Assembly (NCBI GenBank): GCA_024653485.1
Contig: JANLFY010000007.1
Coordinates: 1 to 64,000, forward strand
Reading direction: 5' to 3'
DNA: 64,000 nt
Origin: Bacillota bacterium
GTDB lineage: Bacteria > Bacillota > SHA-98 > UBA4971
Shown: positions 678 through 57,189 of the stretch, one piece after another
Position numbering within the stretch: the stretch's first letter is position 1
Layout of the letters: each line of letters opens with the position of its first letter
Translations under genes and position numbers: made by a program
The notes under the pieces: generated by a model
Seen by the model: the letters and a program-made list of their open reading frames with translations, nothing else
Databases searched by the model: none
What the model was told of the DNA's origin: nothing

Positions 678-1705
678 CTCACGAGAAAGGGAGGATACCC
701 GTCGAGGTCACCACGCAAATGACGGGCGAGTAGGAGAGATTGCACATACGGAATCAAGCCGATGCTGATCTTCTCCTCCAGGAATGGATGAGTGATTTCT
801 TCCTGTTTCCTCTTTTGCCATTCGGTCAGGACAAGCTTTCTCGTGTCAGCGTCCATCAAGACACCGCCAGATTCCTTCTTAACGAAACCATTGGGGCTCA
901 CCTGCTTGTTGTTCACCAGCGTGAGTGCGAGCCGGTCCACTAGATACGGCCGTAGCTCCTCCATGAGGTCCAGTGCCAGGCTCAGTCGTCCGGGCCTGTC
1001 GCGGTGAAGGAATCCGACCTGAGGATCGAGCCCCACGGTCTCGAGGGCCGAGGCACAGTCCATCATGAGCAGTGTGTACAAGAACGAGAGAAGTGCGTTC
1101 ATGGGATCAAGCGGAGGACGGCGGCTTCGACCGCGGAACGCGAAGGACTCCTTCTGTTCTGTTATCAAGTGGCGAAAAACCTCATAGTATGCTCGCGCGG
1201 CATCTCCTTCAATCCCCCTGATCGCGTCGGCAGAGAGAGACCTGTCAAGGGCCCTGAAGTACACAAGAAGGCGTTCCGCGGCTTCAGCGACCTCCTGCGA
1301 GCCTTCCTTCTCATCGTGGTCGCGCGCAAAACGCATCAAGACGCTCCGGCAGTTCAGAACCTTCCCGGAGACGAACGCCTTCGCCAAGCCGGCCGTCTCC
1401 GCATCTGCGTCTGCTAATCGGTACTGCTTTCTGCGCAGGAGCACATTGCCTGAAACCCTCCCGCTCACACGAGCCAGAAATCGGCCGCTTTCGCTTAAAT
1501 AGCAGAGAGATACGCCTCTCTCACAGCAGAGAGACATGAGTGACGGGCTCGTCCCTGCGTAGTTGAAACACACTATTCCTTCTAGATTATGGATGGGCAC
1601 ACGAAACCTCTCTTGGTCGTCAACTGTTGCGACCAAGTTCTCTCCGTCGCGCGACAGATAGGCATGAGGCGTGGTCACGTAAAGGGTGTTCAGGAGTTTC
1701 CGCAT
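674..1705 (-). CDS. cas1: CRISPR-associated integrase Cas1 (type I-C)
   Basis: Cas1 is the metal-dependent integrase that inserts spacers at the leader-repeat junction together with Cas2. The N-terminus MRKLLNTLYVTTPHAYLS and the C-terminal GFLHRDRPGRLSLALDLMEE segment, which holds the catalytic His and following acidic residues, identify the I-C/I-B branch. I chose the ATG at 1705 (343 residues, normal length) because it lies 4 nt after the cas4 stop; a start at 1744 would add 13 unlike residues and overlap cas4. Its own stop overlaps the cas2 start. Confidence 0.97.
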   Translation of the reverse strand: MRKLLNTLYVTTPHAYLSRDGENLVATVDDQERFRVPIHNLEGIVCFNYAGTSPSLMSLCCERGVSLCYLSESGRFLARVSGRVSGNVLLRRKQYRLADADAETAGLAKAFVSGKVLNCRSVLMRFARDHDEKEGSQEVAEAAERLLVYFRALDRSLSADAIRGIEGDAARAYYEVFRHLITEQKESFAFRGRSRRPPLDPMNALLSFLYTLLMMDCASALETVGLDPQVGFLHRDRPGRLSLALDLMEELRPYLVDRLALTLVNNKQVSPNGFVKKESGGVLMDADTRKLVLTEWQKRKQEEITHPFLEEKISIGLIPYVQSLLLARHLRGDLDGYPPFLVR

Positions 1706-1709
1706 GCCG

Positions 1710-2399
1710 TCACTTCCTTGGTTCCTCGAGTGTACTAACCCCAAGATACCCCTTGCTACTCCTCCTAGACGCTATTCCCGGTAAACACACCTCGGCAAGG
1801 GAGCAAGATTCACACGCCGCTGTCTTGTGAGGAGGCGGGGTGACTCCCCCGTCATACAGTCGATGCATTTCACCAGCGAGATACTCTACCCGGGCGCGCA
1901 ATTCGGCGCCTATCTTGACAACCTGTCTCCTTCGAGTCTTGCCGTAGAATAGAGCTCCCTCATCCACCCTGACACCCAGCATTTCCTCGAGGCACATGGC
2001 CTGAGCGCATACTTGCACAGCGTCGCGGTCGTCCTGCTTGGGCCTTCCGCGCTTATACTCGACGGGGTAAGGTCTCCATAGCCCCTCTCTCCCCTCAAGA
2101 GAAACGCCCCCGAAGTCGCATTTACGGAACTCGACAACGTCGGCTACACCATAGATTCCTAGCTTGGTGGAGACGAGGGGGACAGCCCGCGTTATGAGCA
2201 CTGTCCCCCTGGCCTCATAGGAAAACGGGTCATCGGTGCTGTCGTGCATGGTCCGTCCATCGAATGTCAGAGCGTTCTCGAGCCACTGACACTCAATGTG
2301 AATCAGTGCGAATTGTCGCGGACAGAACGCGATGTGCTGTATACCGGAGAGCGGCAGGCATTCTTCCTCCAGGTACATGTGACTCACGCTTTCACTCAC
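1710..2399 (-). CDS. cas4: CRISPR-associated Cas4 exonuclease
   Basis: Cas4 is an iron-sulfur PD-(D/E)XK nuclease that trims prespacers and selects PAM-containing ends for Cas1-Cas2. The 229-residue protein has one N-terminal Cys (FCPRQF, about residue 26) and three C-terminal Cys (CESCSLAEVC), the usual four-Cys cluster. The nuclease motifs GVADVVEF and PVEYKRG supply the Asp and the Glu-X-Lys. The GTG start overlaps the cas7 stop as GTGA; an ATG at residue 8 is the alternative. It sits in the standard I-C order between cas7 and cas1. Confidence 0.96.
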   Translation of the reverse strand: MSESVSHMYLEEECLPLSGIQHIAFCPRQFALIHIECQWLENALTFDGRTMHDSTDDPFSYEARGTVLITRAVPLVSTKLGIYGVADVVEFRKCDFGGVSLEGREGLWRPYPVEYKRGRPKQDDRDAVQVCAQAMCLEEMLGVRVDEGALFYGKTRRRQVVKIGAELRARVEYLAGEMHRLYDGGVTPPPHKTAACESCSLAEVCLPGIASRRSSKGYLGVSTLEEPRK

Positions 2400-3256
2400 A
2401 CTCTCTCGATTAACGTGACTTGCGATGGAAGTGCTTGACGAGCGATGTCCACGACATAGTCGGCGAACGCGCGCGCGGGCCGGCTCGGATCCGCTCTGCG
2501 CACTTTGATGCAGTCAAAGAGCTCGTGTGCGTGCGCGTTGCCTAGAGCTGTCGAGTGTTCGAAGACAACGAGTTTGCGAGTGGACATCTTGCCCCGGGCG
2601 GCGGATCGATCGTGCTCGAACATGTTTTCAAGAGCTTGCCACAAGAGTTCCAGATCTTGCTTTGAGAAGCCGGTTTGAGCAGCAAGATGAGCTGAAACGT
2701 AGCCCTCCGCCCTGTAGAGCGCGTATGGCACGATGTGTTTGCGACCCATGGTTCGTTCTTTCCCAACATCGCGTTCGTTGGTAACGGCCAACCTCGTTAT
2801 GCTGATTTCCTGTGGCACGATAGGATCTACACTGCGGGCGAAAGTGAACTGGACTGGCCCGCGCACCTGTCCGCAGTTTACCTCAGTGGTCATGACCGCA
2901 CCGAACGTGCGGACGTCGTAGAAGTTATCGCACATGAACTTGGTCAGTTCCCTGGCTCTAACTCTCGCGTCCTTCTCGTTCTTCGGGTCAATTCCGAGCG
3001 TGTCATAGGCCCGCTTATTCTGCGAGTTCAACACCACGCCTTCGTGGACATAGATGTCGTATCCCTCCTCGCCGTCTTTGACCAGCTCCACATAGTTTCG
3101 CACCTTCCGCTTGAGACACACGTCGGTAACGATGCCGAAGTTGGTTTCAGCGTCTATGCGCGGCATGTTGCCGGCATCGGGATCTCCGTTGGGATTACCG
3201 TTCTCAACATCGAATAAGAGAACGAACTCGTAACGTCGGTCAATTGGGGTCATCAT
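2396..3256 (-). CDS. cas7c: Type I-C Cascade backbone protein Cas7 (Csd2)
   Basis: Cas7 polymerises along the crRNA to form the Cascade backbone. The product (286 residues from this start) has the N-terminal RRYEFVLLFDVENGNPNGDP signature and the LKRKVRNYVE segment of Csd2 proteins. I use the ATG at 3256 because AAAGGTGG lies 8 nt upstream; an in-frame GTG at 3268 sits inside that same ribosome binding site. The stop overlaps cas4. It is separated from cas8c by about 130 nt, the only sizeable gap between subunit genes in the operon. Confidence 0.96.
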   Translation of the reverse strand: MMTPIDRRYEFVLLFDVENGNPNGDPDAGNMPRIDAETNFGIVTDVCLKRKVRNYVELVKDGEEGYDIYVHEGVVLNSQNKRAYDTLGIDPKNEKDARVRARELTKFMCDNFYDVRTFGAVMTTEVNCGQVRGPVQFTFARSVDPIVPQEISITRLAVTNERDVGKERTMGRKHIVPYALYRAEGYVSAHLAAQTGFSKQDLELLWQALENMFEHDRSAARGKMSTRKLVVFEHSTALGNAHAHELFDCIKVRRADPSRPARAFADYVVDIARQALPSQVTLIERV

Positions 3257-3389
3257 CTCATACTCCACCTTTCCGCCTAATTTCGGTCTCGCATTTCGGT
3301 AACAGGTGCGTGCGCCTCACGTCGCCTCGCTTCGGTCATTGGTAACAAGGAGATCCAACAGCCCGCTTTGTGGTCGGACGACCGCTGAT
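3257..3389 (-). other. Non-coding gap between cas8c and cas7c
   Basis: This 133-nt gap stands out in an operon whose other genes mostly overlap or nearly touch. It contains the cas7 ribosome binding site and short echoes of TTTCGGT and GGTAACA, but no open frame of note and no clear terminator. It could carry an internal promoter or an RNA-processing site; nothing seen decides this. Confidence 0.4.
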
Positions 3390-5931
<2,542 letters not shown>

Positions 5932-8103
5932 CTATACTATCCAGCATGCATCACCTCTCTCCTTAGGTGCCGGTACGTGGAGGCCGTATCGGGAATCATA
6001 GAAGCTCATGTCACGCAAGACATCGACGCCACCTATGTTCTCGAGCGCTCCTGAATCCCAAAGCTGCTTGTATTCCCATACCTGGATCGACACCGTATAC
6101 GGCTGTATCCGCCGGGCGAGTGCACGATCAATCCCCTCAGCTCTCGCTTGAGCGATCGCACGCTTGCACTCATCATCGAAAGGAATCGAGATGCTGAAAG
6201 TGTCTTCCGCTATCACCCTGAACAGGCGCGCAATTTCGTCGAACGGGAAGTTGAGGCTCTTGGCACCCGCCTCCAGCCTTTGCATGATCTCTCGCTCGTC
6301 CAGTCGCGCTCCTTCGTAGAAATAGAGGTCCTGGAAATATCGTTCGACTGCTTCGAGGGCAAGAGGGTCGTTCGACGCTTCAACGATGCGAGCGGCGATA
6401 GCTGCCGTGCGTTTGAACCATACATGTCTCATACCTTCCCCGCCCGCAGGCCAGAAGACGATCACTTCCCCGCGATCACGAAGCCCCTCGCGGTTGCATC
6501 TTCCTGCCGCCTGGGCAATCGAGTCTATCCCCGCCATCGCGCGCATGACCACAGGAAAGTCCAAATCCACACCCGCCTCAACCAGCTGCGTAGAGATCAC
6601 GCGACAGGGCATAGCGCTGCGAAGTCGCTCCCGGATCTCGCCGAGCCGCTGAGCGCGGTGGACTGGACACATGGCGGCGCTGAGGTGATAGTGTCCGTCA
6701 TTCTCACCCAGTCGCTCGAAAAGCCTCCTCGCATGAGCGCGTGTGTTGACTATACAGAGAGCCTGCTTGCGACTCAAGATCTCCGCGGCGACTTCATCGT
6801 TTTCGAGCTTGCCCCCGTTTGAAACCACCACCCGCTTCAGCGCATTATAGAGAGAGCTCGGGTCAGGGACGATCTCCTTTACCTTTATGTCGGCCGGGAG
6901 CAGGCCTCCGAGCGCCGGCTGGGTTGCCGAGCATAGCAAGACTGTCGCGCGGTAATTGGTTACGAGCTCGGCCAAGGCGGCGACGCATGGTTGCAGGAGC
7001 TCCACCGGGAGCATCTGCGCCTCGTCGAGGATGACGACGCTCTTCGCGACGTTGTGTAGCTTGCGGCATCGGGAGCTCCTGTTGGAGAATAGAGACTCAA
7101 AGAACTGCACGTTCGTTGTCACTACTAGGGGCATGTCCCAGTTCTCCTCAGCAAGCTCCAGCCTTCTTACCAGCCCAGAGTCTTCGCCTTCCTGATGACG
7201 AACCACGTTCGAATGATGCTCGAGGACCGCATCCGCGCCCACGGCCTCCCGGAACACCGCGGCGTTTTGCTCTATGATGCTCGTAAAGGGAATTACGTAG
7301 ATGACCCGGTCGAGCCCGTGCATCACCGCATGTCTGAGCGCAAAGGCAAGTGACGAAAGGGTTTTCCCCCCGCCTGTGGGCACGGTCAAAGTGAACAGAC
7401 CAGGCTCGCTTTGTGCCGCCGCGATGCAAGCCTGAAGGACCTCAGCGCGTATCCTGTTTACACGAGTGTCGGGGGCTCCGGCGGTCTTCTGGCGCAGGTA
7501 GCGCTCAAGCCGGCAATGAAGCTCGGTCACCTTCGGGGATCTGGGACGCATCTTGTGCCTCACCGGGTCCATGAAGCGCTCAGTATCAAGGAAATCGGCG
7601 TCCACAAGACATGAGAAGAGCATCCTTATGAAGAAAGCTACGCCGAAGCCCGGATGGCCCGGTTGCGGCCTTATAGTGAGCCTCGGAGGCGGTGGCGGCA
7701 CTCCGAGCTTGCGCGCATAGTCGGAGCAATCAGGGACGTCCTTGGTCGTGAGCCTGTGAATTAGACTTCCTTCAGCTGCCTTGTTTCCTCCGTCTGGAAT
7801 CCCACCATGATGCCCAGCTACCGCGTACGCGATGACTAGACCGAGTGGACCGTACTCCTCAGCAGCGATACGCGCGCCTGCCGAAGAATGATCCACCCTC
7901 AGGCGCGGGTCCTCCAAGCGCAACTGGAAGTCTTTGGAGGCCTTGCCCACGTCATGTAAGATACCTGCAGCCCAGCCGAGTTCACCAGCACCGAAAGATG
8001 AAGCGAAGGACCGTGCTTGATCTGCTACTGCAATTAAGTGATCCTTGAGGGGTTGCCAGCAGGCCTTGTCCGCAGTTTCGAGTGAATGGGCATAGTAGTC
8101 CAT
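5932..8103 (-). CDS. cas3: Cas3 helicase-nuclease (HD + DExD/H)
   Basis: Cas3 is recruited by Cascade to nick and degrade target DNA. The 723-residue protein has the N-terminal HD nuclease (His22, His50-Asp51 in ILHDVGK, and AGHHGG near residue 98) followed by a superfamily 2 helicase with Walker A VPTGGGKT (241-248) and the DEAQ box (360-363). Motif VI-like AQAAGRCNREG is also present. The ATG is preceded by GGGAGGT at 7-nt spacing. It is the first gene of the cas operon, and the upstream 460 nt should hold the operon promoter. Confidence 0.97.
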   Translation of the reverse strand: MDYYAHSLETADKACWQPLKDHLIAVADQARSFASSFGAGELGWAAGILHDVGKASKDFQLRLEDPRLRVDHSSAGARIAAEEYGPLGLVIAYAVAGHHGGIPDGGNKAAEGSLIHRLTTKDVPDCSDYARKLGVPPPPPRLTIRPQPGHPGFGVAFFIRMLFSCLVDADFLDTERFMDPVRHKMRPRSPKVTELHCRLERYLRQKTAGAPDTRVNRIRAEVLQACIAAAQSEPGLFTLTVPTGGGKTLSSLAFALRHAVMHGLDRVIYVIPFTSIIEQNAAVFREAVGADAVLEHHSNVVRHQEGEDSGLVRRLELAEENWDMPLVVTTNVQFFESLFSNRSSRCRKLHNVAKSVVILDEAQMLPVELLQPCVAALAELVTNYRATVLLCSATQPALGGLLPADIKVKEIVPDPSSLYNALKRVVVSNGGKLENDEVAAEILSRKQALCIVNTRAHARRLFERLGENDGHYHLSAAMCPVHRAQRLGEIRERLRSAMPCRVISTQLVEAGVDLDFPVVMRAMAGIDSIAQAAGRCNREGLRDRGEVIVFWPAGGEGMRHVWFKRTAAIAARIVEASNDPLALEAVERYFQDLYFYEGARLDEREIMQRLEAGAKSLNFPFDEIARLFRVIAEDTFSISIPFDDECKRAIAQARAEGIDRALARRIQPYTVSIQVWEYKQLWDSGALENIGGVDVLRDMSFYDSRYGLHVPAPKERGDACWIV

Positions 8104-8565
8104 GGATGCTACCTCCCAATGCCTGGGTCCGTATCATCATCCACGGCACTGAAGGAGATTCGCTTTGAAACTAGGAACTCCTCCAAGGATCGACCTCGAA
8201 CGGGAATATCTGGAGTTCATGCCGCAACGACTTGGTGCCTTTCATACGATGTGTCCTTTTCTGCAAAGAAGCTGCGCCCAGGCTGACGCACGCAGGGTTG
8301 CCTCTCGCTCCGGGCCGGAAGGAACGAACGAGGAGAGAAAGAAGGAAGCGAGAAATGAAGGGAAGAAAGAACTGACACGAGGGCCGGGCAGGCCGGGCTC
8401 CCACGGCCAGATGAGCGGACGCGCGGACGCATTGATGCGAGGGCGCATTTGCGCGCAGACGGTCGAGGGAACGAACGGTCGGACGCTTGAACGCCGTGAC
8501 CCGAAACGGCGAGAGCTCTGTGGTGGAATGAGCCATTCTGGCATGAAAGGGGACGCGGGCGGGAG
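8104..8565. other. Non-coding region upstream of the cas operon, with a purine-rich tract
   Basis: These 462 nt separate the divergent cas3 and CPBP genes, so promoters for both should be here, but none could be assigned by eye. Positions about 8320-8375 form an almost pure A/G tract on the plus strand, built from short gaacga/gaagg-like words. Open frames crossing this stretch on both strands are low-complexity Arg/Ser/Glu-rich translations without family resemblance and were not accepted. Confidence 0.5.
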
Positions 8566-9507
8566 ATGAACGGTTCTATATGCGATGTGGAGAGGCTCGA
8601 CACAAGGCGAATAACGATTTACCTGGCGTTTTCGTTCGGCATAGCCTGGGCCGTCGCGCTCGCGATCTACCTGACGGGCGGTCTCTACAATAGTCCCCCG
8701 CTCATAAAGGGGACACCCTTTACGCTTGCACTGGTGCTCCTCTCGACCGGCTATATGTGGGCGCCTGCACTCGCGCACATACTGACCCGTGTGCTCACAC
8801 GCGAAGGATGGAACCGCACGCTTCTTGTGCCGGACTTCGGGCGGTCCTGGCGTTATTGGGTGGCGGCGTGGGTGGGTCCGGGCATCCTCACAGTTCTGGG
8901 GGCTGCCGTCTTCTTCGCGCTGTTTCCGGGGTACTTTGACAAGTCCCTCAGCGCAGTCAAGGCTATCCTTCAACAAGCCGAGAGCATGTCCGGGCGTCCT
9001 CTGCCCCTGAACCCCTGGGCCTTCATAGTGGTGCAGACGATTCAGGCGATCCTCATCGCGCCCGTCATCAACGGCCTCTTCACGTTCGGTGAGGAGTTCG
9101 GCTGGCGCGCGTACCTCCAACCGAAGCTGATGCCGCTCGGCGCGAGGAAAGCCCTCTTTCTGACGGGCCTGATTTGGGGTGTCTGGCATTGGCCCGTGAT
9201 AGCGATGGGGCACAACTACGGCTTGAGCTACCGCGGGGCGCCCTGGCTGGGGATGCTGGCGATGGTATGGTTCACTCTCATGGTGGGGACTTTCCTAGGG
9301 TGGACCACGCTCCGCGCCGGGAGCGTGTGGCCAGCCGTCATCGGCCACGGCGCGATAAACGGGATAGCGCAAATCGGGATGCTTTTCGTGAAAGGCACGC
9401 CGAACCCGCTGCTCGGGCCGATGCCAGTCGGGATCATCGGATCATTGCCGTGGGTGGTCGTAGTGTTCTTCATAGTCACGAGGAGACCCTCGCCGAAAAA
9501 CGGATGA
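8566..9507 (+). CDS. CPBP-family intramembrane glutamic endopeptidase
   Basis: This 313-residue, multi-helix membrane protein carries the three CPBP/Abi signatures in order: EEFGWRAYLQ (glutamate motif, about residue 184), WGVWHWP, and the His motif near HGAINGIAQ. Such proteins cleave prenylated or other membrane substrates and are sometimes linked to bacteriocin self-immunity. The ATG directly follows GGCGGGAG, an unusually short spacing, and a GTG at codon 8 is an alternative. No partner gene indicating a substrate is nearby. Confidence 0.88.
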   Translation: MNGSICDVERLDTRRITIYLAFSFGIAWAVALAIYLTGGLYNSPPLIKGTPFTLALVLLSTGYMWAPALAHILTRVLTREGWNRTLLVPDFGRSWRYWVAAWVGPGILTVLGAAVFFALFPGYFDKSLSAVKAILQQAESMSGRPLPLNPWAFIVVQTIQAILIAPVINGLFTFGEEFGWRAYLQPKLMPLGARKALFLTGLIWGVWHWPVIAMGHNYGLSYRGAPWLGMLAMVWFTLMVGTFLGWTTLRAGSVWPAVIGHGAINGIAQIGMLFVKGTPNPLLGPMPVGIIGSLPWVVVVFFIVTRRPSPKNG

Positions 9508-52809: not shown

Positions 52810-53445
52810 TCAGTCTTCGGGCGCGAGGGAATCCATGTCAAGCCTCGCCTTCTCCGCCTCGTAGTAGTCGTACGAGGCAGGGAAGCCCAGCATCCCGCCC
52901 ACGAAGCTTTGCGGCCACTGAGACCTGAAGGTGTTGTAGTTCCTTATGGCTACCTGCCAATCGTCGAGGGCAGTGCGTATCTCGTTGACGGCTTCCTCCA
53001 GACCTCTCATGGTTTGCTGCACTATGGGCGGCGAGAAAAGCTGAGGGTACGCCTCGCGCAGGGCGTTCACGTTGACCGAGAGAGCGAGGCCCTCCGCAGC
53101 TTCGCGGAACTGCGTCGCCGCCTGCACCGTCTTCTGAGGGTCCCCCTCTGTCGTCGCCGCTGCGAACTCTTGGGCAGCTCTATCCACTGCCTCGGCGCGC
53201 GCCCTTATGACGTCAGTGAGCGTGTCTTTCTCATGTTCCAGGAAGTCCTTCTCTATCGCCCACAGTCCTTTGATCTTCTCGCTCAACGTCTCGAGTGCGG
53301 CGCCGTATCGTCCTTCCTGCGCCAACACGCCCTGCTGTAACCCGACCAAGCCGCGCTGAGTCTTCATGATCCAAGAGAATCCCGCAATCACCACAAAGCC
53401 GATGGCGACCAAGCCCGCGATCCCGAAAAGGCATCCTCTTCTCAA
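52810..53445 (-). CDS. LemA family protein
   Basis: The 211-residue protein has one N-terminal membrane helix (CLFGIAGLVAIGFVVIAGFSWI) and a helical-bundle domain of LemA type, ending SFVGGMLGFPASYDYYEAEK. LemA proteins are membrane-anchored helical bundles of unknown function, often encoded with TPM-domain proteins, as here. TTG 53445 is chosen because it overlaps the upstream stop as TTGA and has GGGAG 5-6 nt ahead; longer in-frame starts add Arg-rich sequence. It is the last gene of a tight three-gene set. Confidence 0.9.
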   Translation of the reverse strand: MRRGCLFGIAGLVAIGFVVIAGFSWIMKTQRGLVGLQQGVLAQEGRYGAALETLSEKIKGLWAIEKDFLEHEKDTLTDVIRARAEAVDRAAQEFAAATTEGDPQKTVQAATQFREAAEGLALSVNVNALREAYPQLFSPPIVQQTMRGLEEAVNEIRTALDDWQVAIRNYNTFRSQWPQSFVGGMLGFPASYDYYEAEKARLDMDSLAPED

Positions 53446-55283
53446 TGCTCTCCCTCCCCGTAGACCTTCCGAACTATGTCGTCGATGTTTCTTGCGATGG
53501 ACACCACGGCCCCGTCGATGTCGTCGGCGTTCGCGTAGGAGGCTGCTTCCTCCACGACCGGCCCGAGGTCGGAAGACGTGAGGCGCGGCAGTCCTCGCCC
53601 AACGCTGTACCAAACCCGTCCCCCCTCGGGACGGGCGTCAGGTATGATCAGAAACACGAGGCCGTTGTTTTGTCGGGGACCTTCACGTGCTCCCAGCATG
53701 AGCCAGCGCCCGTAATGAGTGGACCATTCCGCGGGGTGCCTCACGCCGCGCTGCACGACTATCACGGTTTCCGCGAGGCCGTCGGATCTCAGGGATTCAA
53801 GCGTTTGGTCAGCGGCCTTGACCGCCTCCTGCCCCACGAGGCCATCGGGGTCGACCACCCAGTATCGGTCCAGGGCCGGAAACGGTGGATCGCCCGCAGG
53901 AACGTCGACGTTTTCATCGTACGGCCTCGCGCCTGAGGACGCAGCTGGAGACCTCGCGCCCGCACCAGAGCCCACGGTCGCGCGCGCATCCGGACCCGTG
54001 CTCAAGCCCCCGCCGCGGCATCCCGCTGCGGCTGAAAGGAGCCAGACGCACATGGCGGCCGTCAGGAGCACGCGCACCATGGAGCTGAACTGCAGGATCC
54101 GCACCCTTCCGCCGCTCGCGCAAAGGCCGTCCGTCCGTGGGATCTCGCCCGAGCTCGAGGGCTCCGACACGCCCCGGAGGCGTTCCGCCGCCCCCCGCGA
54201 CGAAGGGGCTGCGCCGTCGAACTTGCGGGCGCAGCCGGCCCCTCCTCCACCCGCGCACGCGCACGCACACGCGCAAGAGACGCACGCGCACGCGCATGAC
54301 ACGCACGCACATCCGATGGAGCGCCCCCCGAACCCGCCACCGCCGCCGGACTTGCGAGGTCCCGAGGAGGCCTGCCTTCCACTCGTCGGCGAGGATCCCG
54401 ACCTCGACCCCCACGCTGACCGGCCCACAGGAGGAATGGGTAGGTAGGTGCCGTAGTATATCCCACGTCTACCTGTATATCCTCCGCGAGAGGCCGCGCC
54501 AAGGATGATCATGGTGAGGACCAGGACCACAGCGATGACGATCAAGACGAATACCGCGGCCGACGCAGCGGATGCTGCCCGATCGGCTCTCTCATCTGCC
54601 GTCCCTGCTCCCCCTGCGTGTGGACCGCGCCTTGCTTGCATGTCTGGAAAGAGGTCGGAAGAGAAAGCGAAAGTCAGCTTGAGACGTTCGCCCGGTTGAA
54701 GCCGAGCGGTCCAGACCACTTCGCCACCGGTCTTCTGAGAGGGCTCCGGCGAGGCATAGAGGAGATCCGCATCATCGCCAGGGTTGTCGAGACGCACTTC
54801 CAGTCGCTCCGTCACGGCGCGGTCATACCAGCCAGGAATGAACACGAAAGTGACGGCGTCGCCCTTGCGGTAGCCCATCCCCTCCTGTCGCACCCGGAAG
54901 GTGAACCTGAAGGTCTCGCCCGCCGAGTACTCGCGGTCTAGATCAACCCTTACCCCACTCCAAGAGCCGAAGTCCGCTCGAGATACTCGTGCTGCTGCTC
55001 CTTCCCCTGAAAGGATCGTGTAACCGTGACCTGGAAGTCCTACGGTGACCCACGGAATACGGCCACCGGTCACCCGCCATTCCTGGGAGTAGTCGGCTAT
55101 CCAGCTTCCGTCCGGTTGCGGGGATATGGTCACGATGTAGTTGAGTATCCGGTATGTGCCGGTATCCTCGGCCGCGAACGCACGACTCGCCACGGCGCCT
55201 GGAAGACCGCCGGGACCGGCCGCGGCGCCGGCGACGCACACCAGCACCATCACAGCGATCGCCCAGAGTGGCGTCTTCGTCAT
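53442..55283 (-). CDS. Membrane protein with Cys-Ala repeat, joined in frame to a TPM-domain lipoprotein
   Basis: Layout of the 613 residues: signal peptide; extracytoplasmic beta-rich domain (about 40-235, DUF2207-like in plan); membrane helix (about 241-263); Gly/Ser linker; a Cys-Ala repeat with ten Cys (residues 325-351, bases 54231-54311); Arg/Ser linker; a second hydrophobic segment with a perfect lipobox, LLSAAAGC, at about 402-422; then a TPM domain (about 460-605). Two proteins that are usually separate appear joined. The internal ATG at 54080 has no ribosome binding site. As one chain, the topology still works, with the Cys repeat in the cytoplasm. The ATG overlaps the radical SAM gene as ATGA. 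Confidence 0.8.
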   Translation of the reverse strand: MTKTPLWAIAVMVLVCVAGAAAGPGGLPGAVASRAFAAEDTGTYRILNYIVTISPQPDGSWIADYSQEWRVTGGRIPWVTVGLPGHGYTILSGEGAAARVSRADFGSWSGVRVDLDREYSAGETFRFTFRVRQEGMGYRKGDAVTFVFIPGWYDRAVTERLEVRLDNPGDDADLLYASPEPSQKTGGEVVWTARLQPGERLKLTFAFSSDLFPDMQARRGPHAGGAGTADERADRAASAASAAVFVLIVIAVVLVLTMIILGAASRGGYTGRRGIYYGTYLPIPPVGRSAWGSRSGSSPTSGRQASSGPRKSGGGGGFGGRSIGCACVSCACACVSCACACACAGGGGAGCARKFDGAAPSSRGAAERLRGVSEPSSSGEIPRTDGLCASGGRVRILQFSSMVRVLLTAAMCVWLLSAAAGCRGGGLSTGPDARATVGSGAGARSPAASSGARPYDENVDVPAGDPPFPALDRYWVVDPDGLVGQEAVKAADQTLESLRSDGLAETVIVVQRGVRHPAEWSTHYGRWLMLGAREGPRQNNGLVFLIIPDARPEGGRVWYSVGRGLPRLTSSDLGPVVEEAASYANADDIDGAVVSIARNIDDIVRKVYGEGEH

Positions 55284-56866
55284 CTCGACCGCCTCCCGTC
55301 TCCGGCTTCCTCTGTGCGCCGTGCGCCGCGTCGCGCGCAGCTCTTTGCGCCGTTCCTTGCGCCGCCTCTGGCGGGGTCTCGCGTGGCGTCACTTGTGCTT
55401 GTATCCCCGGAGCGGCCCTCGTTCGAGCGACCTTCAGGGATGATGCGCGCCACTGCGGCTGGCCTTTGCGGCGACTTGTTCGCGCCGAGCCTTTCCAAGG
55501 GACACCCGCCGCCGCACACCGAGAAGTGCTGGCATTGCTTGCACTCGGACGGGGCGAAGCCGTGCGCTCTGATCCTTCGGGCGAGCGGGTGGTCGAATAT
55601 GCGCTTCCACGGCATGGTGAGAATGTTCCCGAGACCTTCGTCGTGGAGCCACGACTGGCATGGCACGACGACCCCGTCGGGCCTCACGGCCATGTTAGTG
55701 TGGCACGCCGAGCACGATTTCGCTCCGAGGCCCATCGCTACGGGGTTGAGGTCATTGTAGCACGTCGGTGTGAACCAATTGAACTCCAGACCGAGCCCTT
55801 CCGCGATCGCTGCGGCGTTTGCAAGCACCGACGCAAGGTCGCGCGTCTTCAGGGCTTCGGGATGTCCTACGCCACGTCCGGCAGGGATGAGCGTGTTGCA
55901 CCCGACGTACCTCACGCCTCTGGACGCAAGGAATCTGAGGAGATCGGGAAACCCCTCGGCGTTGGATCTCGTCAGCGTCGTGTTGGTTGAGACGTACATG
56001 CCCTCGCCCAGGGCCGCCTCGATACCTGCTACCGTTTCCTTCCATGCGCCTTGCGAGCCGACGATGGACTCGTGCACCGCGGGATCGGCGGATTCTATGC
56101 TGACCTGCACGTAATCCAAGCTGGCCGCTTTGAGCTTCGATGCGAGCCTGGCCAGCGCCCTGCCGTTGGTGATGAGGCCCGTCACGAACTTCTCGGCGTA
56201 GCGCACGAGCTCCACAAGGTCGGGCCTCATCGTGGGCTCGCCCCCGGTGAAGTTCACCATGGGGACCCCAGCGTTCCACAACCTATCGAGCACGCGCTTC
56301 CACGACTCAGCATCGAGTTCTCGAACTGCCGGCATGTCTGCAGCGTAGCACCAGGCGCACGCGTTCTGGCATCCTGAGACGCCCATGGACGAGATCATCA
56401 GATCCATGCGCGCGGGCGCCCGCCACTCCATCTCCGTCATCACGCGACCGGGAACGCCGCGGTCTTTCGGACACGCGCCTCGCGCAAGCTCGACGATCAG
56501 CCCGTATAAGTAATCGATGTCCTCTTCCACCTCGGCAAGGGGCACCCTCGGATACAACGTGCGAACTCGCCCAGCCGTCTCGCGTTTGACCTCGTCCCAG
56601 GCTTGCCTGGACACCTCCGCTCCCGGTCTGGTGCCCTCCTGCGCGACCTCCATCAGAGCTTGCACTATGTCGGCGTTGCTCTCGTCCAGGAGCAGGAGCT
56701 GGCTGCCGTTTATCCACAAGAGGTTTCTGGGTCGTCTTGCGAAGGCCGGCACCACCGGCCCGCCCGCGCGCCTGAGATGGAGGCGGATCACGCCCGGCCC
56801 CTCCGGGTCAATCGTTATGTGGAACATCCCGGGCGCCCTGGAAAATCGGCGGAGTCTTCCAGCCAA
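55280..56866 (-). CDS. Radical SAM/SPASM domain protein
   Basis: The N-terminal ~130 residues are unassigned. They are followed by a radical SAM domain with cluster motif CQNACAWC, a NFTGGEPTMRPDLVELV segment, and a SPASM-type Cys-rich end (CSACH, CQSW, CKQCQHFSVCGGGCPLE). SPASM enzymes bind extra iron-sulfur clusters and often modify ribosomal peptides or proteins. TTG 56866 is chosen because AAAGGAGG lies 7 nt upstream; ATGs further up (57004, 56944) have poor sites. The tail is Arg/Ala-rich. Its stop overlaps the start of the Cys-Ala-repeat gene, making that protein the first candidate substrate. Confidence 0.9.
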   Translation of the reverse strand: MAGRLRRFSRAPGMFHITIDPEGPGVIRLHLRRAGGPVVPAFARRPRNLLWINGSQLLLLDESNADIVQALMEVAQEGTRPGAEVSRQAWDEVKRETAGRVRTLYPRVPLAEVEEDIDYLYGLIVELARGACPKDRGVPGRVMTEMEWRAPARMDLMISSMGVSGCQNACAWCYAADMPAVRELDAESWKRVLDRLWNAGVPMVNFTGGEPTMRPDLVELVRYAEKFVTGLITNGRALARLASKLKAASLDYVQVSIESADPAVHESIVGSQGAWKETVAGIEAALGEGMYVSTNTTLTRSNAEGFPDLLRFLASRGVRYVGCNTLIPAGRGVGHPEALKTRDLASVLANAAAIAEGLGLEFNWFTPTCYNDLNPVAMGLGAKSCSACHTNMAVRPDGVVVPCQSWLHDEGLGNILTMPWKRIFDHPLARRIRAHGFAPSECKQCQHFSVCGGGCPLERLGANKSPQRPAAVARIIPEGRSNEGRSGDTSTSDATRDPARGGARNGAKSCARRGARRTEEAGDGRRSR

Positions 56867-57189
56867 CCGACTCCCTCCTTTCTGGATCAGAATGACGCAA
56901 TTGGCGCCGCGAGTCAAGGGCAAATCGCCCTCGTCCTCCGCCATCGCCTCACGAGACCGCGATATCCCAAGGTGAAGGATTTTGTGGAGCCACAAGGAAA
57001 ACATAATCTAAGACGCCAATCTCAGGCGACTCTGCCAGGAAACATCTTGGGGCCGTGCGGATTCGGCGCGGGGTCGAGCGCAACGGCTTGGTTACTTGAC
57101 CGAATGGCGAGACGAAATGCAGCAACGCGGGGTTCGCGAGTGCATAGCCAGCCGGTCGGGATTACGAGGGTGGAGAGAGGTGCGGCGTT
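56867..57189. promoter_or_regulatory. Divergent promoter region between the radical SAM gene and addB
   Basis: These 323 nt should hold promoters for both directions. TTGTGG (56982-56987) and CCACAA (56990-56995) form a perfect inverted repeat with a 2-bp gap, a possible operator. Slightly AT-richer sequence follows at 56996-57012. No -35/-10 pair was clear. Confidence 0.4.

Follow-up and report, generated by a model that had tools for sequence, protein, structure and literature searches.

A radical SAM/SPASM enzyme paired with repetitive Cys-Ala tails of membrane proteins: a candidate protein-modification system in bacteria and archaea

Introduction

SPASM enzymes commonly cross-link Cys-rich peptides and, to our knowledge, the substrates of nearly all SPASM cross-linking maturases characterised so far are small, secreted peptides. 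The 64,000-nucleotide stretch of DNA analysed here (hereafter, the window) carries a radical SAM/SPASM gene that overlaps the gene of a much larger protein, a membrane protein with a dense tract of alternating Cys and Ala residues. The locus thus raises the question of whether that tract is the substrate of the enzyme, what would be made of it, and whether the pair belongs to any system already described.

Organization of the locus

Three genes overlap head to tail on the minus strand of the window, in the order radical SAM/SPASM enzyme, 613-residue carrier protein and LemA. The enzyme gene (55280..56866, minus strand) encodes a product of about 528 residues with a profile score of 587 bits. 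Its reading frame stays open up to an ATG at 57004, and the probable start is the TTG at 56866, which has AAGGAGG upstream and is the better match to the starts of homologues. The TGA stop of the enzyme (55282-55280) overlaps the carrier ATG (55283-55281) as ATGA, with GGGAGG lying 8 nt before that ATG, and the carrier gene (53442..55283, minus strand) overlaps in turn the LemA family gene (52810..53445, minus strand) by TTGA at about 53445. Pfam assigns Radical_SAM (E 1.7e-24) and SPASM (E 3.1e-8) to the enzyme, TPM (E 2.8e-7) to the carrier and LemA (E 4.3e-17) to the next gene. A preliminary description of the locus had reported the ATGA overlap between a radical SAM/SPASM gene and a Cys-Ala gene, ten Cys in 27 residues, and TPM and LemA domains nearby; all of this is borne out by the sequence and by the Pfam assignments, the tract reading CACVSCACACVSCACACACAGGGGAGC over carrier residues 325-351 (54231..54311, minus strand).

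The carrier consists, in order, of a signal peptide, a beta-sandwich, a single transmembrane helix, a Gly/Ser linker, the tract and a TPM domain (PF04536; 53478..53858, minus strand). The beta-sandwich (residues 43-208; 54660..55157, minus strand), modelled at a pLDDT of ~92 and predicted to be extracytoplasmic, is kept in the Thermoplasmatota carriers (L150-L153), each of which also bears two Zn_ribbon_TFIIB domains. Searched with Foldseek, the carrier gives weak matches only, to the M1-aminopeptidase/OST1 beta-domain, and its candidate assignment to DUF2207 was dropped when Pfam gave no confirmation. Positive charges flank the C-terminal side of the transmembrane helix (residues 229-265; 54489..54599, minus strand) and therefore place the tail in the cytosol. 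The tract, which is disordered in the structure model, would thus face the cytosol in a protein that crosses the membrane once, a topology read from hydropathy and charge only and ambiguous in L014, where two hydrophobic segments lie close together.

Across the relatives, the tails are borne by membrane proteins of 370-700 residues with a signal peptide. The tail protein and the lipoprotein-like TPM protein form a single reading frame in the window, L009 and L054, and two genes in close relatives. They are separate genes in L010, L011, L051 and L052, and the single frame of the window is therefore read as a fusion or a lost stop codon; its product may be one polypeptide or may arise by internal re-initiation. 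A further arrangement is seen at L012, where a protein kinase/ATPase-like frame (978-4406, plus strand) continues in frame into a Cys-Ala tail. We do not count it as a second carrier type, because the junction leads into a C-terminus resembling that of the carriers and may be the product of a chimeric assembly.

The radical SAM/SPASM enzyme

The CX3CX2C motif of the enzyme (C212, C216 and C219, numbered from the ATG at 57004, within a core at 55928..56377, minus strand) is invariant in 26 of 26 sequences and, together with a PF04055 match of 87 bits, places it in the radical SAM superfamily. The SPASM region (55502..55714, minus strand) reads C431-X12-G-X4-C449 followed by C488-X2-C491-X5-C497-X3-C501, in agreement with the pattern CX9-15GX4C ... 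CX2CX5CX3C, and matches PF13186 with 34 bits; its six Cys columns are invariant or nearly so, and the alignment contains no conserved seventh SPASM Cys. In the structure model the N-terminus (56483..56830, minus strand) forms strands followed by three helices, in an RRE-like arrangement. The alignment to SkfB starts at SkfB residue 22 and so reaches into the N-terminal domain of that enzyme, and PqqD (PF05402) is matched in a sister clade (E 2.1e-9) and near the cut-off in a degenerate paralogue, both described below. Pfam does not call PqqD in the window enzyme itself, in which we count a predicted PqqD-like recognition domain as present on the strength of the model and these relatives.

The nearest solved structures are SkfB (E 1.6e-33) and then PqqE by sequence, and SkfB, SuiB, PqqE and CteB by fold. 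No maturase model of NCBIfam comes near its cut-off, the best being NirJ2 (109.5 bits against 500), with the SkfB model at 59.9 bits against 300. The RRE-like N-terminus, the nearest structures and the NCBIfam scores thus describe a maturase of the RiPP kind that lies outside every named family. A role in a defence system was also considered and set aside, as PADLOC returned generic viperin cross-matches only, at the level of the radical SAM core.

Co-occurrence of enzyme and tail

An initial scan of genome contigs with the enzyme yielded six relatives, five of which adjoin Cys-Ala tails; the sixth contig begins at the enzyme gene. The systematic survey covered 794 genomes from three phyla (the window's own, Chloroflexota and Thermoplasmatota), which were searched separately with a DNA pattern for CACACACA and with an enzyme profile built from 26 sequences. 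Profile scores are bimodal: 39 genomes reach at least 548 bits and the remainder score no higher than 340 bits, and in all 39 enzyme-bearing genomes a tail gene adjoins the enzyme. Adjacency is constant and gene order is variable, the tail gene either preceding or following that of the enzyme. The DNA pattern alone recovered 36 of these 39 genomes; in G206 the contig breaks off partway through the tract, and G462 and G534 carry CACACAGCACACAGGGR, a 3+3 repeat that falls one repeat below the reach of the pattern.

No in-frame tail was found in the enzyme-lacking genomes of the three phyla. The tail at L136 is in frame with no enzyme nearby, and its genome (G300) encodes the enzyme on a different contig; likewise, L161 is a contig fragment of a genome (G301) that also bears the enzyme. 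As a control, tails were sought within 1.5 kb of 17 other radical SAM loci of the same genomes and were found at none of them, as against 38 of 39 for the enzyme studied here. Fisher p-values of 1.8e-13 and 4e-67 take no account of common descent and are inflated by phylogenetic non-independence; lineages make better independent units, and these comprise three families in the window's phylum, Chloroflexota and two separate Thermoplasmatota clades. Both genes are absent from the window's genus-mates G088 and G181. Plasmid records contained no relative, and a collection of viral contigs gave one weak partial match.

Selection on the tract

A GC-rich hexanucleotide microsatellite might by chance fall in frame beside an unrelated radical SAM gene, and TGCGCN microsatellites do exist: about 19 spurious matches to the tract pattern were found without the enzyme across the three phyla. 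These matches are microsatellite reads that are antisense, out of frame or in a short ORF, and none of them has the enzyme or forms a C-terminal tail after a Gly-rich linker. The real tracts, in contrast, differ at synonymous sites and keep an identical peptide across domains of life. Summed over all pairs of the seven window-type tracts, 346 codon differences are synonymous and 23 change the amino acid. In 41 tracts the two Cys codons are used evenly (152 TGC and 152 TGT), and Ala is encoded by all four of its codons. Moreover, in a carrier alignment extending from Bacillota to archaea no other part is as well conserved as the tract, the flanks of which vary. As judged from these codon and alignment data, the tract peptide is under purifying selection, and the chance reading is refuted because synonymous sites vary while the peptide is constant.

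Tail alphabets and the enzyme tree

Five groups can be distinguished by tail type and enzyme. The first, in Chloroflexota and Thermoplasmatota, has CACACACAGCACACAGGGR or CACACACACACAGGGR at the extreme C-terminus and the tail gene before the enzyme gene, and the second, in two families of the window's phylum, has SCACACACACASSGGCT tails. The third is the CACVSC type of the window, with the enzyme gene before the tail gene, and is found in Bacillota and in the four Thermoplasmatota with two-zinc-ribbon carriers. The fourth is a sister enzyme clade whose members, in Chloroflexota and in the window's phylum, adjoin (CHSA)n tails, with carriers at L229 (3663-5129, plus strand), L230 (6655-8349, minus strand), L231 (6624-8210, minus strand), L234 (7093-8847, minus strand) and L235 (4052-5824, minus strand). 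One such carrier ends in CHSACHDACHSAC...CVSGGAR, a second tail alphabet that follows the same logic. The fifth group is the clade of the degenerate paralogue.

On a maximum-likelihood tree of the enzyme, these five groups can be mapped with 4 changes, the fewest that five groups allow, and the window-type CACVS clade unites Bacillota and Thermoplasmatota with a support of 100/99. The tree thus sorts by tail type across host phyla, and it is therefore the enzyme, and not the host, that the tail alphabet tracks, as would be expected of an enzyme and its substrate. Taken together at the level of sequence, adjacency and co-evolution show a functional linkage between the two genes, as distinct from the chemistry involved. 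We strongly infer that this linkage is one of enzyme and substrate, which we regard as highly probable.

Neighbouring genes

A second radical SAM-like gene is present in 14 of the Chloroflexota CA loci sampled, near that of the active enzyme (for instance at 3357-4529, minus strand, in L126 and at 7468-8640, plus strand, in L127). Its product keeps the RRE-like N-terminus and lacks CX3CX2C and the SPASM Cys in 15 of 15 sequences, the copy of the Chloroflexota genome G398 included, and is probably a catalytically dead partner or scaffold. In G398 this paralogue stands alone (L236), with no tail found within 9 kb. A gene for a class I SAM methyltransferase lies beside the cassette or close to it in 16 Chloroflexota and Thermoplasmatota loci, and 11 loci have, immediately upstream of the tail gene, one for a small, zinc-ribbon-like membrane protein (these loci fall among L124-L135, L154-L160, L232 and L233). 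LemA and TPM accompany the window's family only, and neighbourhood clustering of the loci revealed no conserved peptidase, exporter or transporter.

The zinc-ribbon-like protein of the Chloroflexota and Thermoplasmatota cassettes and the two Zn_ribbon_TFIIB domains of carriers L150-L153 bring to mind a tail that is mainly a metal-binding or iron-sulfur carrier, akin to metallothionein, which the enzyme would use as a cluster or electron donor, or whose metal site it would mature, with no covalent change. Alternating Cys residues are indeed well suited to metal thiolates. We nevertheless consider such a role improbable: the enzyme belongs with the maturases that combine an RRE and SPASM and its nearest structures modify peptides, the CA, CACVS and CHSA variants follow the enzyme clade, as expected for substrate recognition, and Ala is as strictly conserved as Cys in CA tails.

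A proposed modification of the tail

The account that we favour, and hold to be probable as a whole, is that the enzyme makes multiple Cys-based, likely thioether, modifications on a tail that stays on its carrier. The RRE-like N-terminal domain of the enzyme would bind the membrane protein in the cytosol, where the tail would be within reach of an oxygen-sensitive radical SAM enzyme, and the Cys-Ala tract would then be modified at many positions. The likeliest products would be thioethers of the sactionine or ranthionine type, joining the sulfur of Cys to carbon atoms in neighbouring residues, with the alpha-carbons of Ala as the leading acceptor. For the RumC thioether enzyme, Ala has been proven to serve as the acceptor, in Ruminococcin C (PMC8188230). 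Since all tail variants contain Cys and almost all contain Ala, multiple Cys-to-Ala thioethers become the leading chemistry; for the thioether type as such, we see the balance as even.

SPASM maturases are chemically diverse (SuiB, PqqE and the epimerases are cases in point), and the methyltransferase conserved in 16 loci of two phyla could take part in a different reaction. Epimerisation of Ala or Cys, C-C cross-links, S-methylation by the neighbouring methyltransferase or decarboxylation might thus take the place of thioethers on the tract. This we deem somewhat unlikely, given that the nearest match by both structure and sequence is the thioether-forming SkfB and that Cys is constant throughout the tail variants, as expected for sulfur chemistry.

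Returning to the thioether account, the system has no leader peptide or protease of the type usual in RiPPs, which counts against it, as does the lone degenerate paralogue of G398; the large carrier might supply its own recognition sequence in place of a leader peptide. The absence of a conserved peptidase or transporter gene among the neighbours makes it most likely that the product stays on the protein. The tail would then be neither cut off nor exported, and would remain on a single-pass protein with its beta-sandwich outside the cell, possibly as a rigid Cys-derived or metal-binding signalling element. In its broadest form, the proposal is that radical SAM enzymes turn the repetitive Cys-Ala or Cys-His-Ser-Ala tails of single-pass membrane proteins into permanently attached, multi-thioether cytosolic structures, constituting a new class of protein, and not peptide, modification in bacteria and archaea, in which every tail alphabet is served by a separate enzyme clade, with a catalytically dead paralogue and a methyltransferase as additions in Chloroflexota. 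On this wider formulation our judgement is evenly divided.

Relation to known systems

The maturases SkfB, CteB, AlbA and RumMC resemble the window enzyme in their RRE-like N-terminus, radical SAM core, SPASM Cys and location beside a gene for a Cys-rich substrate. Sactipeptide and ranthipeptide (SCIFF) systems act on a short secreted peptide, whereas here the putative substrate is a membrane-protein tail with about ten Cys strictly alternating with Ala, and the window system has no short precursor with separate leader and core. QhpD is a radical SAM enzyme that forms intra-protein Cys thioethers in a functional protein that is not a RiPP (PMC8326336). The enzyme proposed here would resemble it in this, but QhpD joins Cys to Asp or Glu in a subunit of quinohaemoprotein amine dehydrogenase, and the repetitive Cys-Ala membrane tail of the window has no conserved acidic acceptors. 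Membrane proteins of the TIGR04222 family have a Cys/Gly-rich C-terminal tail that is thought to be modified by an adjacent MNIO (DUF692) oxidative iron enzyme; those tails are predicted to be periplasmic and are loosely linked to the enzyme, and the MNIO is absent from 490 of 1,372 genomes (PMC12452194). The system described here differs in enzyme superfamily, tail sequence and carrier, in its 39/39 pairing and in the predicted cytosolic location of its tails, and no TIGR04222 domain was found in its carriers, as NCBIfam gave no match at all for carrier P0001 at E<=1, nor for four others at E<=1e-20.

The preliminary description had proposed the tract as a possible SPASM substrate that would give a membrane protein with thioether cross-links, with metal binding by the tract as the alternative, and knew of no system with this combination. 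The first proposal gains support from the pairing in every enzyme-bearing genome, from the tracking of the enzyme tree by tail type and from nearest structures that are RiPP maturases, and the homologues of the Cys-Ala protein do not, as would have told against it, usually lack a SPASM neighbour. The second agrees with our searches of NCBIfam, Pfam and the literature, in which no description of the pair was found; most subscription journals lay outside their scope, and we use the term undescribed provisionally. The kind of enzyme is already known, and the novelty lies in the kind of substrate (a repetitive membrane-protein tail), the perfect pairing and the tail alphabets.

More generally, a maturase-type enzyme appears to be locked to a conserved membrane-protein tail, with no exception to the pairing found in three phyla, one of them archaeal, and the co-variation of tail alphabet and enzyme clade offers a natural series for studying how radical SAM enzymes read repetitive substrates. 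The pair is also encoded on a 7.4-kb scaffold from human faeces filed as 'Bacteriophage sp.' (L241, MT837216.1), on which the enzyme gene precedes a tail of sequence CASSCACACASSCACACACAGGGRAGC that ends in CASSCACACASSCACACACAGGGRAGCSVKDFY. Its neighbours, by eye, are of bacterial type (peptide chain release factor-like and YitT-like reading frames), and we regard it as a misfiled bacterial contig and not as a phage. The conserved pairing in three phyla, together with this occurrence in human faeces, argues for a housekeeping or signalling role, and not for an antibiotic one, and the faecal contig suggests that a cultured host may exist.
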